A stretch of 64,000 nt of DNA. Source: Corynebacterium sp. sy039 (GTDB lineage Bacteria; Actinomycetota; Actinomycetes; Mycobacteriales; Mycobacteriaceae). The translations under genes and the position numbers were made by a program. The notes under the pieces are model-generated. The model was not told where the DNA came from, did not search any database, and saw nothing but the letters and a program-made list of their open reading frames with translations. This document shows, one piece after another, positions 14,537-46,637 of the stretch (positions are counted from its first letter, which is position 1; every line of letters begins with the position of its first letter). The stretch covers positions 1,364,001 through 1,428,000 of the forward strand of contig NZ_CP042325.1 of assembly GCF_007904105.1 (NCBI RefSeq), in the 5' to 3' direction.

Positions 14537-15298
14537 TTATTGGGTAATCAACCCGGCTACAGCACCAATAACATAGACAGCTGGTGGTTGTATCTGCTGC
14601 GCACGCATAAGCTGAGCCAATTCTGCTACTTCGCAATGAAAACTACGCTGATGTTTGGTAGCGCCTTCTTGTATCACGGCAGCAGGGGTATGTGGATCAA
14701 GACCTGCGTCGATAAGTGCTTGAGTAATTGCTTCAGCATTTTTTACTCCCATTATCACCACCAAGGTACCGCCAGTATGTGCCAGCGCAGAGAAGTCATT
14801 AAGTGATTTGGGGTGTCCGGGTGGTAAATGCCCAGATACAATCGTGAAATTATGCACCATCCCACGTTGTGTGACAGGTATGCCTGCCAAGGCAGGAACA
14901 GCAATACCACTGCTTACCCCGGGGACGATTTCACAAGCAATGCCCTGTTCCTGAAGTGCTTGGTATTCCTCAAAACCGCGGCCAAAGACATAAGGATCCC
15001 CGCCTTTTAAGCGCACCACTTTTTTACCTGCTAGTGCATATTCAATCAGGAGTTCATTTATTTTTTCCTGAGCGACCTGCTTGCCATAAGGCAACTTGGA
15101 GACATCAACAATCTCTTTTTTTTCTAAATCACATAACTCAGATAATTCTGCTAACTCAGCCCCAGGTCCTAAATGATCAACTAACACTACATCAGCTTCA
15201 TGCAATTTTTTCATACCACGAATTGTTATCAGGTCCCATGCACCAGGACCACCACCAATAAGCGTTACAGTAGAAGTTAGTTTTTCTGCCATGCACAT
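14537..15298 (-). CDS. cobA: Uroporphyrinogen-III C-methyltransferase (SUMT)
   Basis: SAM-dependent methylation of uroporphyrinogen III at C2 and C7 to precorrin-2, the branch point to cobalamin and siroheme. At 253 aa it is the single-domain form without the CysG dehydrogenase/chelatase domain. Motifs are LIGGGPGAWDLITIRG near the N-terminus, VRLKGGDPYVFGRGFEE near 95 and VPGVSSGIAVPALAGIPVT near 125. Two ATGs (15298, 15292) are possible starts. It is divergent from selO with only 29 bp between the starts. With cobB, cobO, cobQ and the chelatase genes in the window it supports a corrin pathway; it may also feed siroheme. Confidence 0.96.
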   Translation of the reverse strand: MCMAEKLTSTVTLIGGGPGAWDLITIRGMKKLHEADVVLVDHLGPGAELAELSELCDLEKKEIVDVSKLPYGKQVAQEKINELLIEYALAGKKVVRLKGGDPYVFGRGFEEYQALQEQGIACEIVPGVSSGIAVPALAGIPVTQRGMVHNFTIVSGHLPPGHPKSLNDFSALAHTGGTLVVIMGVKNAEAITQALIDAGLDPHTPAAVIQEGATKHQRSFHCEVAELAQLMRAQQIQPPAVYVIGAVAGLITQ

Positions 15299-15327
15299 AG
15301 AGTTTAGTCCCCACTAGGGTTGGATAC

Positions 15328-16746
15328 ATGAATCTGAGTCACCATTTTGCTGAGAACCTACCGTCGTTTGTACACCCAACTACGATGGAGCGGTTCCCTA
15401 ACCTAGAGTTAGTGCAGTTCAATGACGCATTGGGTGCAGAACTCGGTATCACTAGCTGCGACCTCCTCTCATTATTAGACTCACACCCTGCTGGTCATGC
15501 CATGGCATATTCTGGCCATCAATTTGGCAATTTCGTCCCTTTGCTTGGCGACGGGCGGGCACTCCTCTTAGGAGAGTTACGTGCACGCAATGGCTCTTTG
15601 GTTGATATTCATCTCAAAGGCTCGGGTCGCACTGTGTTTTCTCGCGGTGGTGATGGTCAGGCTCCGCTGGCAGCAATGCTTCGCGAATATGTCATAAGCC
15701 GGTGGCTGCATACTTTAGGTATTCCTACCACACAGGCTTTGGCAGTGCTCAAAACTGGCAAGAAAATTGCTCGTACCACGGCAGAAGAAGGGGCATTACT
15801 GATCCGAGTGGCACCTTCGCATATCAGAATAGGCACTTTTCAATATGCTGCGCTACGCGGTCAATCCTATGTTCAGGAACTTGCCGACTATAGTATCGCT
15901 CGGCACTACTCTGGTTGCAATTACGCTGAGTTTTTCGACGCGCTAGTCCAACGGCAGGCACAATTAGTTGCCCAATGGATGCGTTATGGTTTCGTTCACG
16001 GAGTGCTCAACACCGATAACACCACCATAAGCGGGGTAAGTATTGACTACGGTCCATGTGCTTTTATGGAATACTACGACCCAAACACTGTGTTTAGTTC
16101 TATCGATCATAACGGTCGCTATAGTTACGGAAATCAACCCGGGATAATCAGATGGAACCTCACTAGACTTGCAGAAACATTACTTCCCATTCTCCCCCAT
16201 GCACACCTGAGCGCTATCCTTGATACTTTTCCCACGCACTATCATCGCGCATGGTTGAGCCTTATGCGTGGTGCATTAGGACTAGAGGGAAAAGAACATA
16301 ACCCAACCGTCGAAAAGCTCATTGAGGATTGGCAGCTGTTATTAAACCAAACGCACCTTGATCTCAATGCTTTCCTGCATCTGCTTGCGCATACGCACGA
16401 CGACATACCTCAGGAGGAATTAGCTGCACTACTGCCTCAACGCAACAACAGTCAGCACCATCATCACCTGAATCAGATAGCTCAGTGGATTACGCAGTGG
16501 CGCTCTCTTGACCCAGATTATGCGCATATGCGCACAGTCAATCCCGCATATATTCCGCGGAATCATGTTGTGGAAGATGCTCTCAAGAAAGTGCGTTACG
16601 ACGATGATCTTAACGATGTCAAGCGCATTATGACACTACTAGACACTCCTTTTGGGGAGGTAGCTCAAGATAACCCACTGGCTGTCTCATTGAGCACACC
16701 AGATTCTGCTCTTGCCTCAACCTTTGTTAGCTATTGCGGTACGTAA
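15328..16746 (+). CDS. selO: SelO / YdiU family protein AMPylase
   Basis: Pseudokinase-fold enzyme that transfers AMP from ATP to Ser/Thr/Tyr of target proteins, linked in the known family to redox control. At 472 aa it is full length. Visible landmarks are HQFGNFVPLLGDGRALLLGE (64-83), the LKGSGRT nucleotide-binding block (97-102), REYVISRWLHTLGIPTTQA (119-137) and HGVLNTDN (224-231) with the predicted catalytic Asp230. The metal-binding Asp240 lies in SIDYGPC. The C-terminus ends SYCGT; animal SelO carries selenocysteine close to its end, and here a Cys occupies a comparable place. AGGG precedes the ATG. Divergent from cobA, 29 bp apart. Confidence 0.95.
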   Translation: MNLSHHFAENLPSFVHPTTMERFPNLELVQFNDALGAELGITSCDLLSLLDSHPAGHAMAYSGHQFGNFVPLLGDGRALLLGELRARNGSLVDIHLKGSGRTVFSRGGDGQAPLAAMLREYVISRWLHTLGIPTTQALAVLKTGKKIARTTAEEGALLIRVAPSHIRIGTFQYAALRGQSYVQELADYSIARHYSGCNYAEFFDALVQRQAQLVAQWMRYGFVHGVLNTDNTTISGVSIDYGPCAFMEYYDPNTVFSSIDHNGRYSYGNQPGIIRWNLTRLAETLLPILPHAHLSAILDTFPTHYHRAWLSLMRGALGLEGKEHNPTVEKLIEDWQLLLNQTHLDLNAFLHLLAHTHDDIPQEELAALLPQRNNSQHHHHLNQIAQWITQWRSLDPDYAHMRTVNPAYIPRNHVVEDALKKVRYDDDLNDVKRIMTLLDTPFGEVAQDNPLAVSLSTPDSALASTFVSYCGT

Positions 16747-16755
16747 CCCCAGGAA

Positions 16756-17271
16756 TTACTCCTGGAGGGATTCCCGCTCTAGCAGTGCTCGTTTAATCTC
16801 TAGCCCATAGCGAAAACCGCCTAGGCTACCATCACTGCGTATAATCCGATGGCAAGGCACAAATAAGGCTGCACTATTGCGGGCACATGCACTAGCTACA
16901 GCCCGAATAGCCCGTGGCGCACCGCATAATGCTGCGTAGTCACGATAGCTTATGGGGTTTCCGGGCGAAACCTCGCGTAAACATTGCCATGCTTTTTCTT
17001 GAAAAGCAGTAGCGACTTGGGATACCGCCACCTCAGCCACTCGATGAATCTCGCCCTGATAATATGCATGCACTGCGTCGAGCGCGAAAGAAACCTGTGG
17101 ATTATGCGCAGGCACTTCTTCTAGTTGATCTGGTCGGATACTACTGTGAATCAAAGAGAGCAATTCCTGAGTAGTGGTATTCCATCCGCTTGCCAATACT
17201 TTGTTATCAGCACTGATAATGCTAAACGCACCATCTGGGGTAGCTGTGGTACTGAAAAATGCAATCACCAT
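16756..17271 (-). CDS. ogt: Methylated-DNA-[protein]-cysteine S-methyltransferase
   Basis: Suicide repair enzyme that removes O6-alkyl groups from guanine onto its own Cys. At 171 aa it is the Ogt form without an Ada domain. The active-site motif VPCHRII has Cys140; the helix-turn-helix and arginine finger region AIRAVASACARN lies at 121-132, preceded by the FQEKAWQCLREV block. Last gene of the minus-strand chelatase-cobO-cobB operon, 17 bp after cobB, so it is probably co-transcribed with it. Convergent with selO, whose stop is 9 bp away. Confidence 0.96.
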   Translation of the reverse strand: MVIAFFSTTATPDGAFSIISADNKVLASGWNTTTQELLSLIHSSIRPDQLEEVPAHNPQVSFALDAVHAYYQGEIHRVAEVAVSQVATAFQEKAWQCLREVSPGNPISYRDYAALCGAPRAIRAVASACARNSAALFVPCHRIIRSDGSLGGFRYGLEIKRALLERESLQE

Positions 17272-17288
17272 GTTTTTCTCTTCGTTGT

Positions 17289-18710
17289 CTATGCTGTATC
17301 GGAAACAGCGTCACGACAAGCAGCATAGTGCAAGCACTGTTCCACAAAACGACTTATTGCTGTGGGCACCGCGGCTGGGTGAACGTGCACATAACTCGCA
17401 TGGATATTACCACGGATAAACCCTTCTTTTACCACTTCTTTTTCCCAACTACGCCATGCCCAAGCGGGATTGTAGTCACCACTATCGTGAGCACGAGACT
17501 CCGCGTCGACGACTAATTGAGTGTAGTGAAACTCATGCCCCACGACGCGCTGCCCTGCACGATAGAGACAAGAATCAACTAAAGCAACACTATCGCGGTA
17601 GCCCAGTGTCACTCGATTCTTCATCGTTGCTACTGCGGGGATCACCCCCAACATGGGATAGGAGTCAAGGGTGTCAAGCAGCCATAATAAACCAGCACAT
17701 TCTGCGTGCACCGGCATACCTTGTTCAATTCGAGCACGTATCTGCTTGGCCAATTCACTACGCTGGGCTAATTCCTTACAGTATTCCTCTGGGAATCCAC
17801 CGGGAATAATAAGCCCATCGCAATCTGGAAAATCATCACGCAATGGATCAAAACTCATAAGTTCTGCTCCTGCTGCAGCTAGTAATTCTCTATGCTCAGC
17901 ATAAGTGAAAGAAAAAGCAGGTCCTGTTGCCAGTGCAATACGAACTCTAGGGTGCCGAGCAACAGCCTCAATATGATCTTCTGGTTTCCACGGCTCGCCT
18001 TCCCATTGACACTGTGCGCACTCAATGATCCGGTCTATATCGACATACTGTTCGACAATGTCACCCATTTTTTCCACTGCTTCTTGTGCGGTGGTCAATT
18101 CTCCAGAAGTAACTAATCCCAAATGTCGAGAAGGCACAGCAATATCTTTTATTCGTGGTACCACACCAAATACAGGGATACCGCAGTCGATTATTGCTTG
18201 TTGACAGACCTCAGCATGACGGGAACTACCTGCATTATTAAGGATTACCCCTGCAATGTTAAGCCGAGGATCATAAGTGGAGAAACCACGCACAAGTGCT
18301 CCAACTGACTGGCTCATTCCTCGCACATCCACAACAAGCACTATGGGCAAACCCAACAGCGCAGCAATATCTGCAGTAGATCCCTCGGCATAGTCACTGC
18401 CACTGTGCTCAGTGGTGATTCTGCCATCAAATAGTCCCATAACGCCTTCGACGACAGCTATATCTGCGCCTTGGCAACCATGTGTATAAAGCGGACCGAT
18501 AAGTTCTCGCCCACACATAACAGAATCAAGATTTCTACCTTGGGTTTTCGTCGCTAAGCTATGATAGCTCGGATCTATATAATCAGGACCCACCTTAAAA
18601 GGAGCGACTGTCATGCGCTGGGCTAGGGCATACATAAGCCCAGTGGCTATTGTGGTTTTTCCTGCCCCAGAGGCAGTAGCTGCAATAACAAATCCTGGGG
18701 TTGTCACCAC
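17289..18710 (-). CDS. cobB: Cobyrinate a,c-diamide synthase
   Basis: Glutamine- and ATP-dependent amidation of the a- and c-carboxylates of (hydrogeno)byrinate. At 473 aa it has the usual two parts: an N-terminal DTBS-like ATPase with the P-loop region GAGKTTIATGLMYAL (about 15-29) and VVEGVMGLFDG (about 85-95), and a C-terminal class I glutamine amidotransferase domain with HAECAGLLWLLD (about 335-346) carrying the nucleophilic Cys. Whether it acts on cobyrinate or hydrogenobyrinate depends on the pathway and cannot be decided here. Overlaps the end of cobO by 7 bp and precedes ogt by 17 bp. Confidence 0.97.
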   Translation of the reverse strand: MVTTPGFVIAATASGAGKTTIATGLMYALAQRMTVAPFKVGPDYIDPSYHSLATKTQGRNLDSVMCGRELIGPLYTHGCQGADIAVVEGVMGLFDGRITTEHSGSDYAEGSTADIAALLGLPIVLVVDVRGMSQSVGALVRGFSTYDPRLNIAGVILNNAGSSRHAEVCQQAIIDCGIPVFGVVPRIKDIAVPSRHLGLVTSGELTTAQEAVEKMGDIVEQYVDIDRIIECAQCQWEGEPWKPEDHIEAVARHPRVRIALATGPAFSFTYAEHRELLAAAGAELMSFDPLRDDFPDCDGLIIPGGFPEEYCKELAQRSELAKQIRARIEQGMPVHAECAGLLWLLDTLDSYPMLGVIPAVATMKNRVTLGYRDSVALVDSCLYRAGQRVVGHEFHYTQLVVDAESRAHDSGDYNPAWAWRSWEKEVVKEGFIRGNIHASYVHVHPAAVPTAISRFVEQCLHYAACRDAVSDTA

Positions 18711-19324
18711 TCAATTCCTTTTTGTCCCTTGCGTCCCTGATCCATCGGATGTTTGATTTTCTCCATACGCGTGACCAAATCAGCTACTTCAATCAATCGC
18801 GGATGAGCATCCCTACCAGTAATAACGACGTGCTGTGTTCCTGGTCGACTCTTCAGAGTCTCCACCACATCTTCAACATCAATCCAGCCCCACTTAATGG
18901 GATAAGTAAACTCATCAAGCACATAAAAATCATGTGTTTCTTGCGCTAAACGACGCTTGATCTCCTCCCACCCCGCTGCAGCATTATGCGCATGGTCTTC
19001 TTGCGCTCCTTGTTTCCTCGCCCACGACCAGCCCTCTCCCATTTTATGCCACTGCACAGCACCGCCCTGAGCAGTGTCCTCATGCAACTGAGCCAAGGTA
19101 CGGAACACGCTTTCCTCGCCAACGCGCCATTTTGCTGATTTTACGAATTGGAATACTCCGATGTTTAAGCCCTGGTTCCAGGCGCGTAATGCCATGCCAA
19201 AAGCAGCCGTAGATTTTCCTTTGCCGTCACCGGTATGTATCGCTGTAATAGGTAGCTGACGACGTTGTTTGGTAGTCAAACCATCATTGGGGATATTCTT
19301 TGGATCTACTTTTCCCTGCGGCAT
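18704..19324 (-). CDS. cobO: Cob(I)yrinate a,c-diamide adenosyltransferase
   Basis: Attaches the 5'-deoxyadenosyl ligand to reduced corrinoid. At 206 aa this is the CobA/CobO/BtuR family. A P-loop HTGDGKGKSTAAFGMALRAW begins near residue 31, the DEFTYPIKWGWID block lies near 137, and the typical VITGRDAHPRLIEVADLVT region is followed by the C-terminal KGIEW. The gene overlaps cobB by 7 bp and lies 62 bp after the VWA chelatase subunit, so chelatase, adenosylation and amidation genes form one operon. Confidence 0.97.
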   Translation of the reverse strand: MPQGKVDPKNIPNDGLTTKQRRQLPITAIHTGDGKGKSTAAFGMALRAWNQGLNIGVFQFVKSAKWRVGEESVFRTLAQLHEDTAQGGAVQWHKMGEGWSWARKQGAQEDHAHNAAAGWEEIKRRLAQETHDFYVLDEFTYPIKWGWIDVEDVVETLKSRPGTQHVVITGRDAHPRLIEVADLVTRMEKIKHPMDQGRKGQKGIEW

Positions 19325-19386
19325 TCTTGTACTTCTTTCTTTACTGTCTTTGCTGCTTACAATGCTTTTCTATTGATACTCACACA

Positions 19387-20142
19387 TCAGAAAACGTCAA
19401 TGGCTCTCGTAATAGCTTGTGCGCTCAGTTGCTCCATACGAATGCACTCACCAGCTAAATGCCGAGCTAACTCCTGTGCAAGACCAAGCCTGATACGCCC
19501 TTGTGCTTCACAATCAATAACAATACTTCCCGTTAATGTTCCTTGGGCAATTTTTGCAGCTACACTATGTGATTTCTTCACAGCATCTTTTCCGGTGGCG
19601 CGCCCGTCGGAAAGCACTACTAATATAGCTCTGCGCCCTGGTTCCTTAAGATGGTGCGTGCTAATAATTCGATGTGCAAGGGCAAGTCCTGCTTCCAAAG
19701 GAGTTCTTCCGCCTGTTCTGATATCTTGCAATCGCTTCTGCGCAATATCAATTGAGCTTGTTGGGGCTAAAAGTAATTCTGGTGCTTTCCCCCGCACACT
19801 GATTACGGCAACTTTGTCCCGGCGTCGATAAGCATCCGATAGTAAAGACGACACAGCACCTACCACAGCACTGAGTCGATCACGCGCAGCCATAGAACCA
19901 GAGGCATCAACGAGAAACACAATCAGATTAGCTTCCTTACCGCGACGGATATTCCTACGCACATCAGCTGCCAGAAAAGGGATAACAGATTTTTCTGAGG
20001 ATAATCGTGCCCCTCGCGCTACTGCAGCATGCAGCGAAGCAACAAGATTGAGTCCATGACCATGCTCTGAACTAGCTCGAATATCAGCACCAATACTAAG
20101 TTGCTGATAAGCCCTCCTACCTGGAGGTGCTTCATAGCGCAC
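19387..20142 (-). CDS. VWA half of ChlD/CobT-like chelatase subunit (probably made by +1 frameshift from the upstream gene)
   Basis: Von Willebrand A domain of a Mg/Co-chelatase medium subunit. The MIDAS motif DASGS lies at residues 79-83, followed by TPLEAGLALA and VVLSDGRATG. Read alone, it would begin at GTG 20142, which has no Shine-Dalgarno sequence and lies 13 bp after the stop of the ChlI-like frame. The frame is open upstream of this GTG to a TAG at 20206-20208, and that upstream stretch encodes [14 protein letters not shown], which reads as a natural continuation of a fused ChlI-ChlD protein. I infer synthesis as the C-terminal part of a roughly 624-aa fusion. Partner of an expected CobN elsewhere; followed by cobO. 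Confidence 0.88.
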   Translation of the reverse strand: MRYEAPPGRRAYQQLSIGADIRASSEHGHGLNLVASLHAAVARGARLSSEKSVIPFLAADVRRNIRRGKEANLIVFLVDASGSMAARDRLSAVVGAVSSLLSDAYRRRDKVAVISVRGKAPELLLAPTSSIDIAQKRLQDIRTGGRTPLEAGLALAHRIISTHHLKEPGRRAILVVLSDGRATGKDAVKKSHSVAAKIAQGTLTGSIVIDCEAQGRIRLGLAQELARHLAGECIRMEQLSAQAITRAIDVF

Positions 20143-20155
20143 ACGAGTTTTTGGC

Positions 20156-21262
20156 TTACGTTTGAGTGTTCGGATAGCGAAAGGGCGCGCCAGAATCAGC
20201 GCTGCCTACCTTTCCATCTTGGGAGACGTGCGCATCATCAGGATTATGTTGAGGGCGCATACTGTTGTTTCCCAGGTGTTTATGATCCGCAGCGTCGGTA
20301 GGCTCAGGCTGAGAATGATCTTGGTGATTGTGTTGTTCTTTGGAGCGTTCCATGATGTTTTCAAGCTCCTGCTCACTCACCCCTGGTTCGTCAAAAGGAT
20401 TCTGCCGACGGCGGTGCGGTAATGCTAAACGTGCTGCTACGTTAATATCTTCTTCATTCACACTACCTCGCTGTTGCCATGCCGCATGTGCCATCGCAGT
20501 ACGAGCAATAACAAGATCACCGCGCAGGCCTTCGACTCCAAACTCAGCACAAATATACGCAATCCGCTCTAATTGTGCATCGCTCAAAGAAATCTCATCA
20601 ACCACATCTTTAGCTTGTGCGATACGTACTGCGATTTCTTCATCTTTTTCTTGCCACTGACGTACAAAACCCTGTGGATCATTCTCATAAGCTAATCGAC
20701 GACGCATAATTTCAGCTCGTTCGCGCACATCAGCTGGTCCTGCAATATCAACAGAAAGACCAAAGCGATCCAAAAGTTGTGGACGCAGTTCTCCTTCCTC
20801 AGGATTCATCGTGCCGACAAGAACGAAACGCGCTGATTCAGTATGGGAAATAGAATCGCGTTCAATAGTCACCATTCCAGTTGCAGCTGCGTCGAGAAGC
20901 ACATCGACAATATGGTCTGCAAGTAGATTGACCTCATCCACATAGAGCACACCACCATCGGCAGCACTGAGCAGACCTGGTTGAAACTGTGCTTTTCCAG
21001 TAGTAAGCACAGTTTCAATATCAAGCGAACCGACGACGCGATCTTCAGTAACGCCAAGGGGAAGATTGACTAATGGAGCACTACCTAATAGACGCGAAAA
21101 AGCACGCACGGTAGTAGTTTTTGCAGTGCCCTTTTCGCCTCGGGCAATGACACCACCAATACGAGGCGCAATTGCTGACAGAATGAGTGCAAGACGTAGA
21201 TCTTCTTGACCCACAATTGCAGAAAATGGAAAAAATGATGGCGACTGTATCTCTTTGTTCAT
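20156..21262 (-). CDS. ChlI/BchI-like AAA+ chelatase ATPase (0-frame product)
   Basis: AAA+ motor subunit of a magnesium/cobalt chelatase, 368 aa. P-loop [10 protein letters not shown] spans 42-51, Walker [10 protein letters not shown] lies near 110, and [20 protein letters not shown] (sensor and arginine-finger region) lies near 150. A His/Gln/Asp-rich linker (about 315-350) and SGAPF precede the seven final residues RYPNTQT. Those seven look out of place, while the +1 frame gives AIRTLKRK directly after PF. First gene of the operon with the VWA frame, cobO, cobB and ogt. In a B12 operon it should serve cobalt insertion with CobN. It follows the mqo terminator, so it needs its own promoter in 21263-21292. 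Confidence 0.93.
20179..20185 (-). other. Candidate +1 ribosomal frameshift site CCC-TTT-C
   Basis: Minus-strand codons CCC (20185-20183), TTT (20182-20180) and the following C. A P-site tRNA-Pro could slip from CCC to CCT, or tRNA-Phe from TTT to TTC; the Phe anticodon GAA pairs better with TTC. A +1 shift here joins the ChlI-like frame (…SGAPF) to the VWA frame (AIRTLKRK…). The allowed window runs only from 20205 to about 20158, bounded by the TAG of one frame and the TAA of the other. Programmed frameshifting in chlD genes is known; its use at this site is inference. A single-base insertion or a sequencing error is the alternative. Confidence 0.5.
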
Positions 21263-21292
21263 AGCTCAATATGTCATTGTTAGTATGTGAAA

Positions 21293-21325
21293 ACAACCGA
21301 GATCTCTTCTAAGGATCTCGGTTGT
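21293..21325 (-). terminator. Rho-independent terminator after mqo
   Basis: A perfect 12-bp stem, ACAACCGAGATC pairing with GATCTCGGTTGT, around a 9-nt loop, followed on the minus strand by TTTT. It lies 20 bp downstream of the mqo stop and separates mqo from the chelatase operon. Confidence 0.85.
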
Positions 21326-21345
21326 GTGCATGAAGATAAGAATTA

Positions 21346-22842
21346 CTATCCCTCTAATTTGAGTGTTTTTTGAGTGTAACTCCACATCTCATTAAAGAGA
21401 GTCTTATTTGCAGAAAGTTTCACGCCATACGACGGCACCATTTCTTTAATTTTATCTGCCCATACCACCATGCGATCACCAAAGCAATGCTCTAGCACCT
21501 CTAGCATTGCTGCAGGGGCAATAGAAGCACCTGGTGATGCGCCTAAGAGACCAGCAATGGAACCATCATTAGAGTTAATCAAAGCGGTACCAAACTCAAG
21601 AGAACCAAAACGTGGACCAACGACAGGTTTAATAACCTGCACACGCTGACCAGCGGTAACAATCTCCCAATCTTCATCGCGTGCCTCTGGAACATACTCA
21701 CGCAATGTTTCCATACGAGCCTGCTGATCTTTTAACAACTCGGTGATGAGATATTTCGTCAAACCAAGTTCTTGCACACCAACAGCAAGCATAGAAGCCA
21801 CATTGGTCACCCGTAAGGATTTAGGCAAATCCGCCCATGACCCTTTCTTCAAGAACTTTGGTGTCCAACCCGCATATGGTCCAAAGAGCAAGCCCTTTTC
21901 ACCATCAATAACACGGGTATCAAGATGTGGTACTGACATTGGTGGAGCGCCAACCGATGCTTTTCCATATACCTTGGCAGAGTGCTGGCTAATAATTTCT
22001 GGATTAGTACAACGCAACCATTGACCTGATACCGGGAAACCACCAAAACCACGGATCTCTGGGATACCTGCTTTTTGCAGCAAAGGAAGTGCCATACCAC
22101 CAGCACCAACAAAAACGAAATTTGCACGAGTGACGCTAATGTCACCGGTGTGACGGTTCTTTGCAGTAATTTTCCACTTGCTACCGTCACGGCTAATGTT
22201 ACGGACTTCATGCCCATAACGGAATGTGGTTCCTTCTTTTTTGGCAGCCTGTAAAAACTGCTTAGTCAGAGCACCGAAGTTAATATCTGTTCCTGCGTCT
22301 GTCCAAGAGATAGCAACCTTATCCGATGCAGGACGTCCACGCCCCATAAGTGGCAACATATCATCGAACTGCGCACGATCATCACTAAACTGCATATCAG
22401 GGAATAGTGGATGACCGTCTAACGCCTCAAAACGCTTCTTCAAGTAAGCAACTTGTTCAGCTCCGTGACCAAAAGAAACATGAGGTACTTGGTTAATCCA
22501 TTCATCAGGATCCCCAAGAACACCTTGATCTACCTGGTAAGACCAAAATTGACGTGATGTTTGGAACTTTTCATTAACGCCAATCGCCTTGGAGATGTTA
22601 ATTTTTCCATTAACTTCTGGCGTATAGTTCAACTCGCATAATGCAGAGTGCCCAGTACCAGCATTATTCCATGGTGAAGAAGATTCCTGTGCTGGAGCGT
22701 CGAGACGCTCAAACACCATCTGTGACCATGTTGGCTCCAAGGTGCGAAGCATAGCACCTAGCGTGGCACTCATTATTCCTGCGCCGATGAGAGCGACGTC
22801 TACCTCATCAGTAACTTTTGCTGCGGTTGTGGAATTTGACAT
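21346..22842 (-). CDS. mqo: Malate:quinone oxidoreductase
   Basis: Membrane-associated FAD enzyme that oxidises malate to oxaloacetate and passes electrons to menaquinone; in corynebacteria it is the main malate-oxidising TCA step. It is 498 aa. An N-terminal Rossmann FAD site is DVALIGAGIMSATLGAML (about 15-32). The SPWNNAGTGHSALCELNYTP block (about 55-75) and FVGAGGMALPLLQKAGIP in the middle are typical of the family. The ATG at 22842 is preceded by GAGGAAAA about five bases upstream. Monocistronic, bounded by the hairpin at 21293 and by a divergent hydrolase gene. Confidence 0.98.
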   Translation of the reverse strand: MSNSTTAAKVTDEVDVALIGAGIMSATLGAMLRTLEPTWSQMVFERLDAPAQESSSPWNNAGTGHSALCELNYTPEVNGKINISKAIGVNEKFQTSRQFWSYQVDQGVLGDPDEWINQVPHVSFGHGAEQVAYLKKRFEALDGHPLFPDMQFSDDRAQFDDMLPLMGRGRPASDKVAISWTDAGTDINFGALTKQFLQAAKKEGTTFRYGHEVRNISRDGSKWKITAKNRHTGDISVTRANFVFVGAGGMALPLLQKAGIPEIRGFGGFPVSGQWLRCTNPEIISQHSAKVYGKASVGAPPMSVPHLDTRVIDGEKGLLFGPYAGWTPKFLKKGSWADLPKSLRVTNVASMLAVGVQELGLTKYLITELLKDQQARMETLREYVPEARDEDWEIVTAGQRVQVIKPVVGPRFGSLEFGTALINSNDGSIAGLLGASPGASIAPAAMLEVLEHCFGDRMVVWADKIKEMVPSYGVKLSANKTLFNEMWSYTQKTLKLEG

Positions 22843-45105: not shown

Positions 45106-46637
45106 AGATTTATACCTGACAAGTTCCTCAACTCTAGTCCTCGCATTACATGATCAATAGTTGGCTGTGCAATGTCTTCTAAATCAGCCAATGTCCATGC
45201 AAGTTTTAATGCCCTATCAACGCTTCGTTGGCTGACCATTCCTTGCGCTAAATATGCAGATAAAAGCTCCATAGCATCCTCTTTAGCAGGAAACTTCCTA
45301 CGAATAATTGGAGCCTCAACAGAAGCAGTCACGTATTGAGACAAGCCTGCCTTGCGCCAACGCCACTGTGCTCTTTGACGACCAGCTGCCACACGTTGCG
45401 CAATCGTCGAACTCGACTCTGAAGAACAATCATGTAAAACTGCCCCGCTATTGCGCATTGCCACAACAATATCTAAACGATCCTTGAGCGGACCTGATAA
45501 ATTACTCATATAGGTTCGTCGAACGCGCGACGAACACTGACATTTACTAGAGTCTTCACTGCCACAGCGACAGGGATTAGCAGCAAGTACAAGCTGGAAA
45601 CGCGCAGGAAAAGTAATATTCATACGCGCCCTACTCAAATGCACATATCCTTGTTCAAGCGGCGTACGTAAAGAATCTAAAATATGCGCTGGTATTTCGC
45701 TTACCTCATCAAGAAATAGCACCCCATTATGAGCCAAACTTACAGCTCCTGGCATAGGTTTTCCTTGACCACCACCTAGTAAAGCTGCCTGGGTAATAGA
45801 ATAATGCGGTGCTACGAAAGGCGGATCTGCAATAACGCCTGAATACGTTTTACCAAGTACAGAATAAATTGAGGTAGTTTCTCGCTGCTGATCCCCTACC
45901 AAAGGCGGCAAAATACCTGCCATACGCTGCGCAATCATTGTTTTCCCAGAACCAGGCGGTCCCATCATCAAAAAATGATGTCCACCTGTGGCTGCTATTT
46001 CTGCAATGTACTTTGCTTCTTGTTGCCCAGCAATATCTGCCATATCCAAAGAAACCTTGCTACTAGCGCACACCCGATTTTTTAATAAAGAATGTGCACA
46101 ATCTAAGGTTTTTTCTCCAATAACCCATTGATATAACTCACGAATATGCTCAACTACAAGCACCGATATCCCATCGCATATTTCAGCTTCTGCCAGGTTT
46201 GCCCGAGGAATAACAACAGTTTTAATACCAGTTTCCTTTGACACCAACAATGTAGGCAACACGCCATTAACTGCTTTGATACGACCATCAAGACCTATCT
46301 CACCCAGCAACAAGGTACTCGCTAATTTTTGTAGTGCTGCATGATTATTTCCCACTGCCGTGAGAACTGCCATACACATTGCTACATCCAGATGAGCTCC
46401 AGATTTTGGTAATGATGCAGGTGATAAACTCACCACTGTTTTCGTTTTAGGCCAACTCAATTGACAATTTTGGACAGCAGTCTTAATACGATCACGAGAT
46501 TCTCCGATAGCGGTATCTGTCATACCGATGATATACATCCCTGGCAGACCAACCCCGATATTAGCTTCTACCTCGATAATATGTGCTTGCACCCCTATGA
46601 CAATTGCAGACAAAGTTTTAGCAAGCGCCACGGTCAA
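45102..46637 (-). CDS. comM: ComM / YifB-type AAA+ helicase
   Basis: Hexameric branch-migration helicase of the Mg-chelatase-like family, acting on recombination intermediates. It is 511 aa. A Lon-protease-like N-terminal domain (about 1-170) precedes the AAA+ core with P-loop GPPGSGKTMIAQRMAGILPP near 226, Walker B VLFLDEVSEI near 310 and a zinc-type Cys cluster NPCRCGSEDSSKCQC near 360. The start overlaps the yraN 3' end by 20 bp, and the stop overlaps the dprA start. Not a true magnesium chelatase. Confidence 0.96.
   Translation of the reverse strand: MTVALAKTLSAIVIGVQAHIIEVEANIGVGLPGMYIIGMTDTAIGESRDRIKTAVQNCQLSWPKTKTVVSLSPASLPKSGAHLDVAMCMAVLTAVGNNHAALQKLASTLLLGEIGLDGRIKAVNGVLPTLLVSKETGIKTVVIPRANLAEAEICDGISVLVVEHIRELYQWVIGEKTLDCAHSLLKNRVCASSKVSLDMADIAGQQEAKYIAEIAATGGHHFLMMGPPGSGKTMIAQRMAGILPPLVGDQQRETTSIYSVLGKTYSGVIADPPFVAPHYSITQAALLGGGQGKPMPGAVSLAHNGVLFLDEVSEIPAHILDSLRTPLEQGYVHLSRARMNITFPARFQLVLAANPCRCGSEDSSKCQCSSRVRRTYMSNLSGPLKDRLDIVVAMRNSGAVLHDCSSESSSTIAQRVAAGRQRAQWRWRKAGLSQYVTASVEAPIIRRKFPAKEDAMELLSAYLAQGMVSQRSVDRALKLAWTLADLEDIAQPTIDHVMRGLELRNLSGINL

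Follow-up and report, generated by a model that had tools for sequence, protein, structure and literature searches.

Background

In frameshifted chlD genes (fs-chlD), the ChlI-like and VWA halves of one gene lie in two frames and are proposed to give the small and medium subunits of cobaltochelatase. Such genes have been described in Pseudomonas, Delftia, Methanocaldococcus and others (PMC3711429, PMC9227772, PMC5009743). The -1 magnesium chelatase cluster tested in 2013 comprises 23 genes with up to 63% shifting, and no Corynebacterium appears in the available portion of that paper (PMC3711429). The site is described as A_AAA_AAR, which is reported in chelatase genes (PMC5009743), and there is usually a downstream structure. 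In a wider account of chlD recoding +1 events are rarer than -1, and the available text does not mention Corynebacterium (PMC9227772). Here we describe a chlD-type gene in a stretch of 64,000 nucleotides (nt) of Corynebacterium sp. sy039 (NZ_CP042325.1, positions 1,364,001 to 1,428,000; the window), in which the two halves have the same arrangement and are very probably joined by a +1 shift at UUU_C, with conserved elements upstream rather than downstream of the site. The initial annotation of this locus, made from the letters alone, had treated frameshifting in chlD as an established principle, and the published genes bear this out.

The bypass in T4 gene 60 is long, at 50 nt, compared with the single base of Corynebacterium chlD. 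Its 5' stem loop, behind the ribosome, is thought to move the messenger RNA (mRNA) forward (PMC5009743), which is the point of likeness. At prfB, the gene of release factor 2 (RF2), the +1 shift takes place on four pyrimidines downstream of an internal Shine-Dalgarno (SD) sequence, as it would here. In known +1 sites the SD lies 3 nt before the shift site (PMC5009743, PMC12421855), whereas in Corynebacterium chlD the spacing is 21 nt, or about 5 nt with a hairpin folded, and a sense codon follows. The prfB signal was found in 0 of 2,658 Actinomycetota (PMC12421855). Finally, an engineered hairpin placed directly upstream of the ribosomal E site can mimic the SD duplex and stimulate +1 shifting on 70S ribosomes, with about 60% of the SD effect and only without RF2 (PMC6321510). 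The Corynebacterium hairpin has the same placement. It differs from the engineered ones, which depend on missing RF2, in being natural and conserved, in adjoining an SD tract and in preceding a sense codon.

Results and Discussion

One gene in two frames

The ChlI-like frame, on the minus strand, reads GCG CCC TTT CGC TAT CCG AAC ACT CAA ACG TAA at the junction (stop 20158-20156). The +1 frame opens past a TAG at 20208-20206, reads CCT TTC GCT ATC CGA and ends at 19387, so that the two overlap over 20208-20156 (Table 1). From the coordinates the 0 frame has 368 amino acids (aa), and a frame change after TTT gives 361 + 263 = 624 aa. The frames, coordinates and peptides of the initial annotation were all correct. 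The NCBIfam family TIGR02442 (putative cobaltochelatase, 641 positions) is matched by the ChlI frame over 87-368 and by the VWA frame over 420-641, with separate scores of 436 and 210 bits, each below the whole-protein cut-off of 779. The Pfam matches are AAA and Mg_chelatase in the first frame and VWA in the second. A search of the window's genome (G000) for another chlI, a check that the initial annotation had called for, gave a single strong ChlI, the second match being short and weak. An Rfam search of window 19000-22000 gave no match.

Elsewhere in the window, a 522-aa open frame has a short weak ChlI match at 45573-45785 on the minus strand (38% over 71 residues, E 1.5e-6); it is perhaps a protein of the YifB/ComM type.

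Table 1. Features of the chlD-type locus, in window coordinates
Feature	Position	Strand	Details
ChlI-like AAA+ ATPase, 0-frame open reading frame (ORF)	20156..21262	-	368 aa, ATG 21262, TAA 20158-20156
Linker and VWA domain, +1-frame part, predicted to be translated after the shift	19387..20178	-	263 aa + stop
Putative shift site TTTC (UUU_C)	20179..20182	-	present in 72/72 loci
Codon preceding the shift codon, here CCC	20183..20185	-	CCC 57, CAG 8, ACC 5, CGA 2 of 72
Hairpin GCGCT-GATTCT-GGCGC	20187..20202	-	-20 to -5 from first T of TTT; own minimum free energy (MFE) -6.4 kcal/mol
Tract GGAAAGG-T-AGG, complementary to 16S anti-Shine-Dalgarno, one base bulged	20205..20215	-	-33 to -23; -12.4 kcal/mol
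TAG closing the VWA frame upstream	20206..20208	-	frame change must fall between TAG and 20158

Conservation of the split frame in Corynebacterium

We searched 242 Corynebacterium species genomes and compared all 74 loci with a VWA match at 1e-10, the window's own included. In 72 of the 74 the VWA half is shifted by +1 from ChlI, and the junction contains a TTTC that is in frame with ChlI. The two exceptions, L047 (genome G125) and L076 (G014), were left out of the 72-locus set; L001 and L077/L080 are repeats of counted loci. We looked for the TTTC within the ChlI frame, at most 90 bases from its stop and in phase with VWA, and each of the 72 had one candidate; the phase requirement was waived for L069, which has masked bases, and L069 and L068 (which overshot the stop) were judged by eye. 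The 0-frame codon after TTT is CGC in 47 loci, CGT in 17, CCA in 3, CTC and CGA in 2 each and CAC in 1. A 0-frame stop follows 3-18 codons beyond TTT in every locus, at 3 codons in 37. The relatives within the genus thus have the same split frame as the strain of the window, which is no outlier, and the core reading of the initial annotation, one gene giving ChlI and a ChlI-VWA fusion through a +1 frameshift, gains support from 72 of 74 loci.

The VWA frame has no conserved start codon: ATG, GTG or TTG is missing from -40 to +75 of the site (positions are counted from the first T of TTT) in 31 of the 72 loci. Initiation at GTG 20142, one of the cases that the initial annotation had named as fatal to its own proposal, has no conserved codon to use, and an internal VWA start was rejected.

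At 1e-10, 61 of the 72 genomes with the signal, the window's own included, have no second ChlI match. The other 11 (G008, G074, G088, G103, G113, G114, G126, G137, G140, G193 and G202) carry, beside the frameshifted gene, a second chelatase set consisting of a CobN-like protein, a nearby ChlI with 48-52% identity and a VWA frame of 528-681 aa. A pattern scan of the genome contigs, which demanded CCC and GGCGC and would miss variants, returned 104 stretches. Fifteen lie at a ChlI-VWA junction, all 15 in Corynebacterium, and the other 89, with no ChlI or VWA match at 1e-6, were taken as chance. A 'magnesium chelatase' is listed among ORFs newly detected by RNA sequencing of C. diphtheriae (PMC5784534); this is perhaps the chlI/chlD-type gene described here, whose split frame could have hindered annotation.

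Selection on the nucleotides of the cassette

The 72 ChlI frames were aligned by codon, and 348 columns were scored for synonymous conservation. The eight most conserved (422-426, 429, 431 and 432) all fall inside a stretch of 33 bases whose last three are TTT. The shift codon has 0 TTT/TTC changes on a FastTree tree, compared with 10-21 in eight other Phe columns, all of which mix TTT and TTC. Synonymous changes number 0 in the Pro codon (median of 11 Pro columns, 28), 3 in the Gly codon (median of 19 columns, 28) and 4 in the Ala codon (median of 30, 27), and every Pro preceding the shift codon is CCC. Position -26, a second codon position, takes all four bases, and -27 and -24 are each G in 70 of 72 loci. 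Judged by these substitution patterns, the constraint on the cassette is selection on its nucleotides. On both strands of the window, one of 696 TTTC sites has a hairpin of -6 kcal/mol or below together with an anti-SD match of -10 or below at these distances, and it is the chlD site.

Two elements upstream of the shift site

The junction signal of the initial annotation was confined to the shift site, which it described; it missed the two elements upstream, a tract complementary to the 16S anti-SD and a hairpin. For the pairing we used what we take to be the letters of the 16S 3' end. Within -36 to -21 the complementarity averages -13.0 kcal/mol and is -6 or below in all 70 distinct sequences among the loci, compared with 16% of control stretches; this share is the only control value used, the control mean being unusable for its dummy value at non-pairing stretches. 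The last base paired to the anti-SD is -22 in 48 of 72 loci, and the duplex has a single bulged mRNA base in 44.

The hairpin, at -20 to -5, has 4-7 contiguous pairs in all 70 distinct sequences and a mean MFE of -8.6, compared with -1.5 in controls. Its pairing score ranks 1 of 1100 offsets, and a single nucleotide separates the foot of the stem from the E-site codon. The outermost pair is absent in 22 of 70 sequences, and the inner pair -15/-10 is present in 20 of these 22 compared with 20 of the 48 others (Fisher 8e-5, uncorrected for ancestry). Covariation at pairs -20/-5 and -15/-10 exceeds all of 2000 shuffles; the 72 loci share ancestry, and neither the shuffle nor the Fisher values are corrected probabilities. 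From the SD to UUU the spacing is 21 nt, and it is about 5 nt only if the hairpin folds. Downstream, from +6 to +66, the mean z is -0.21, no signal, and a downstream stimulator was rejected.

The purine tract could also pair with the shift site CCCUUUC (both within window 20179-20215, minus strand), a sequence that is itself similar to the 16S 3' end. This second pairing averages -8.4 kcal/mol in the 57 CCC loci and falls to -3.1 in the 8 CAG and -2.1 in the 2 CGA loci, where the anti-SD match is -13.2 and -10.0. A conserved role for it was rejected on its weakness in the CAG and CGA loci.

Fused genes in other genera and in two Corynebacterium genomes

In other genera of the order both halves lie in one frame, in 26 of 26 loci (a 27th, L080, is Corynebacterium). 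The residue aligned by eye to the shift codon is Phe in 19, Trp in 6 and Tyr in 1, the Trp and Tyr cases having a different linker, and the sequence after Phe (R-L-L, G-x-G-E, GRRS) aligns with the Corynebacterium +1 frame right after TTT_C. Because the Phe of the fused relatives and the residues that follow it align there, the extra base sits in the Phe shift codon. In a search of 298 genomes of the order, with six candidates scored per genome, there is outside the genus one ChlI match (1e-20) per genome among the matches listed, and the VWA frames among them are mostly longer than 560 aa. Among the same listed matches, the frames of G390, G309 and G454 are short, lying near contig ends or being divided between contigs, and that of G461 is interrupted by a stop.

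In genome G125 the fused gene lies at the mqo locus and encodes 606 aa; it reads CCC TTC GCC, without one T of the TTTC found elsewhere. A separate 339-aa ChlI frame lies downstream of cobA and ends behind the AAA+ domain. The upstream elements of the fused gene are reduced to an SD match of -5.4 kcal/mol, against the mean of -13.0, and a stem with 4 of 6 register pairs kept (MFE -5.5). In G014 (L213 3118-10609, minus strand) CobN is followed by a fused 663-aa ChlD and then by a separate 347-aa ChlI, which is a conventional three-gene chelatase set. Both genomes of the genus with a fused gene therefore also carry a separate chlI.

An IQ-TREE tree of 99 ChlI domains (L076, L047 and L080 are left out, and L100 was outside the selection) places the 25 outgroup genes in one clade (100/100) against the other named rows. 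A group of 15 rows (99/92), within which the order is open, holds the two G125 copies and 13 split genes. The branch of the fused copy is 1.41 long and that of the separate copy 0.21, and the program warns that the place of the long row is unsure. Our reading of the tree is that the gene was duplicated within this clade and that one copy then specialised as ChlI and the other as fused ChlD. G125 would then be an apparent natural experiment, in which frameshifting was replaced via duplication by two dedicated genes.

A model of the shift and its alternatives

Comparison of the loci establishes that this is one gene, where its frame changes and that each element is under selection. We hold with high confidence, on grounds of sequence, that it undergoes programmed +1 ribosomal frameshifting at UUU_C to yield both ChlI and a ChlI-VWA fusion; in all likelihood the conserved signal causes a share of the ribosomes to pass over a single base. 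Some ribosomes would read CCC UUU CGC and stop a few codons on, releasing the ChlI-like AAA+ subunit of 368 aa. Others would have tRNA-Phe (anticodon GAA) on UUC instead of UUU, with one base skipped, and continue into the VWA half to make a ChlD-like subunit of about 624 aa. In the P site the tRNA-Phe may slip from UUU to UUC, or it may enter the A site at UUC one base late, with the same peptide either way. Since TTTC is found in 72 of 72 loci while CCC precedes it in just 57, only tRNA-Phe would re-pair throughout. The initial annotation had both tRNA-Pro and tRNA-Phe re-pairing; the second part stands, and re-pairing of tRNA-Pro as a conserved step was rejected, 15 of the 72 loci being without CCC.

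The shift would be favoured by two upstream duplexes placed end to end, that of the mRNA with the 16S anti-SD and then the hairpin. By folding away 16 nt the hairpin would bring the end of the SD to about 5 nt before UUU rather than 21, near the 3 nt of known +1 sites; alternatively, it may block backward movement or pull the mRNA. We favour a hairpin that brings the SD into range, though at about even odds against one that acts as a direct push or roadblock. That ribosomes shift here, at what rate, with what part played by each element, and by P-site slip or late A-site entry, we infer from the conserved letters.

Several points weigh against this reading. In the A site stands a sense codon, CGC or CGT in 64 of 72 loci, rather than a stop. 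The effect of the engineered hairpin appeared solely without RF2 (PMC6321510), and M. smegmatis shifts poorly, at 6.6%, at the prfB motif (PMC12421855). Pairs -19/-6 and -16/-9 of the stem, both nearly invariant, do not covary beyond the 2000 shuffles. Nor are two products needed everywhere, as each genome from the other genera has, among the six candidates scored, a single ChlI match along with its fused gene; these lineages appear to use the fused protein alone, or to make ChlI in a manner not seen here.

The alternative that survives best keeps the frameshift and gives it to the hairpin alone, as a roadblock or a pull from behind, the purine tract pairing with the shift site or pausing the ribosome. 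We consider this a possibility of roughly one chance in three: on 70S ribosomes a lone hairpin did reach about 60% of what the SD achieves (PMC6321510), and the tract can pair with CCCUUUC in the 57 CCC loci, yet that pairing collapses in the CAG and CGA loci where the anti-SD match holds. Two ordinary genes joined by translational coupling, with ribosomes finishing ChlI and restarting in the VWA frame with the aid of the SD-like tract, are improbable. The tract does precede the junction, the window has GTG 20142 and an ATG, GTG or TTG occurs between -40 and +75 in 41 of 72 loci; against this, 31 loci have none, the positions differ among the rest, and coupling leaves unexplained the invariant TTTC, the CCC of every preceding Pro and the fused frame of 26 of 26 relatives. 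Transcriptional slippage is thought unlikely because the runs are just CCC and TTT. Sequencing error or a decaying gene, of which a split frame is the usual sign, can be set aside almost entirely in view of the same split in genomes of 71 other species and a median ratio of nonsynonymous to synonymous substitution rates (dN/dS) of 0.07 over the 31 of 78 pairs usable, the remainder being saturated, for ChlI in a clade of 13 genomes without CobN.

CobN partners and function

CobN (PF02514, 1e-20) is matched in 62 of the 242 genomes and in 58 of the 72 with the signal. The 14 others are G189, which is 53% complete, and the 13 whose split genes group with those of G125 (L048-L054, L057, L058, L061, L062, L064 and L066); the signal is intact in all 13. 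CbiC has no match in any of these 13 and is matched in G000, G125, G089 and G051. The named C. glutamicum control genome has neither a CobN nor a CbiC match. In one of the 13, G023, the frameshifted gene lies between yaaA and cobA. Because 13 genomes of one clade keep the signal without CobN and CbiC, cobalt insertion with CobN cannot be its sole use, and conservation in this clade argues that the chelatase module has some use without CobN. In the window's genome, where CobN and CbiC are both matched, cobalt insertion with CobN is likely, and the two products presumably assemble with CobN into a cobaltochelatase. The use with CobN given in the initial annotation thus holds for this genome and fails as a general rule. 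Translations judged by eye and by their relatives give cobA-like, SelO-like, cobB/cbiA-like and cobO-like frames at window 14537-19324, in keeping with a cobalamin gene region.

Conclusions

Already known is chlD frameshifting, mostly -1 at A-rich sites with downstream structure; what looks new is a +1 signal with upstream elements. Among the papers listed, our literature search found no account of the Corynebacterium +1 signal at chlD, which Antonov 2020 may describe. We propose tentatively, at somewhat less than even chances, that it represents a distinct class of bacterial +1 signal, in which an anti-SD tract and a hairpin stand end to end before UUU_C, the hairpin folds the SD into shifting distance and the next codon is sense, in a phylum reported without the prfB frameshift. 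The clade without CobN would then keep the signal because it fixes how much ChlI is made relative to the fusion, for a chelatase-like motor that has another large partner.

If the model is true, one gene in 72 of 242 Corynebacterium species genomes would give two chelatase subunits whose ratio the ribosome determines, and annotation would list the chlD locus as two genes or as a broken one. It would also be a conserved case in nature on which to test whether upstream duplexes stimulate +1 shifting; the hairpins found in the literature for this role are only engineered ones. The 13 genomes without CobN make testable what ChlI and ChlD do without the large subunit.
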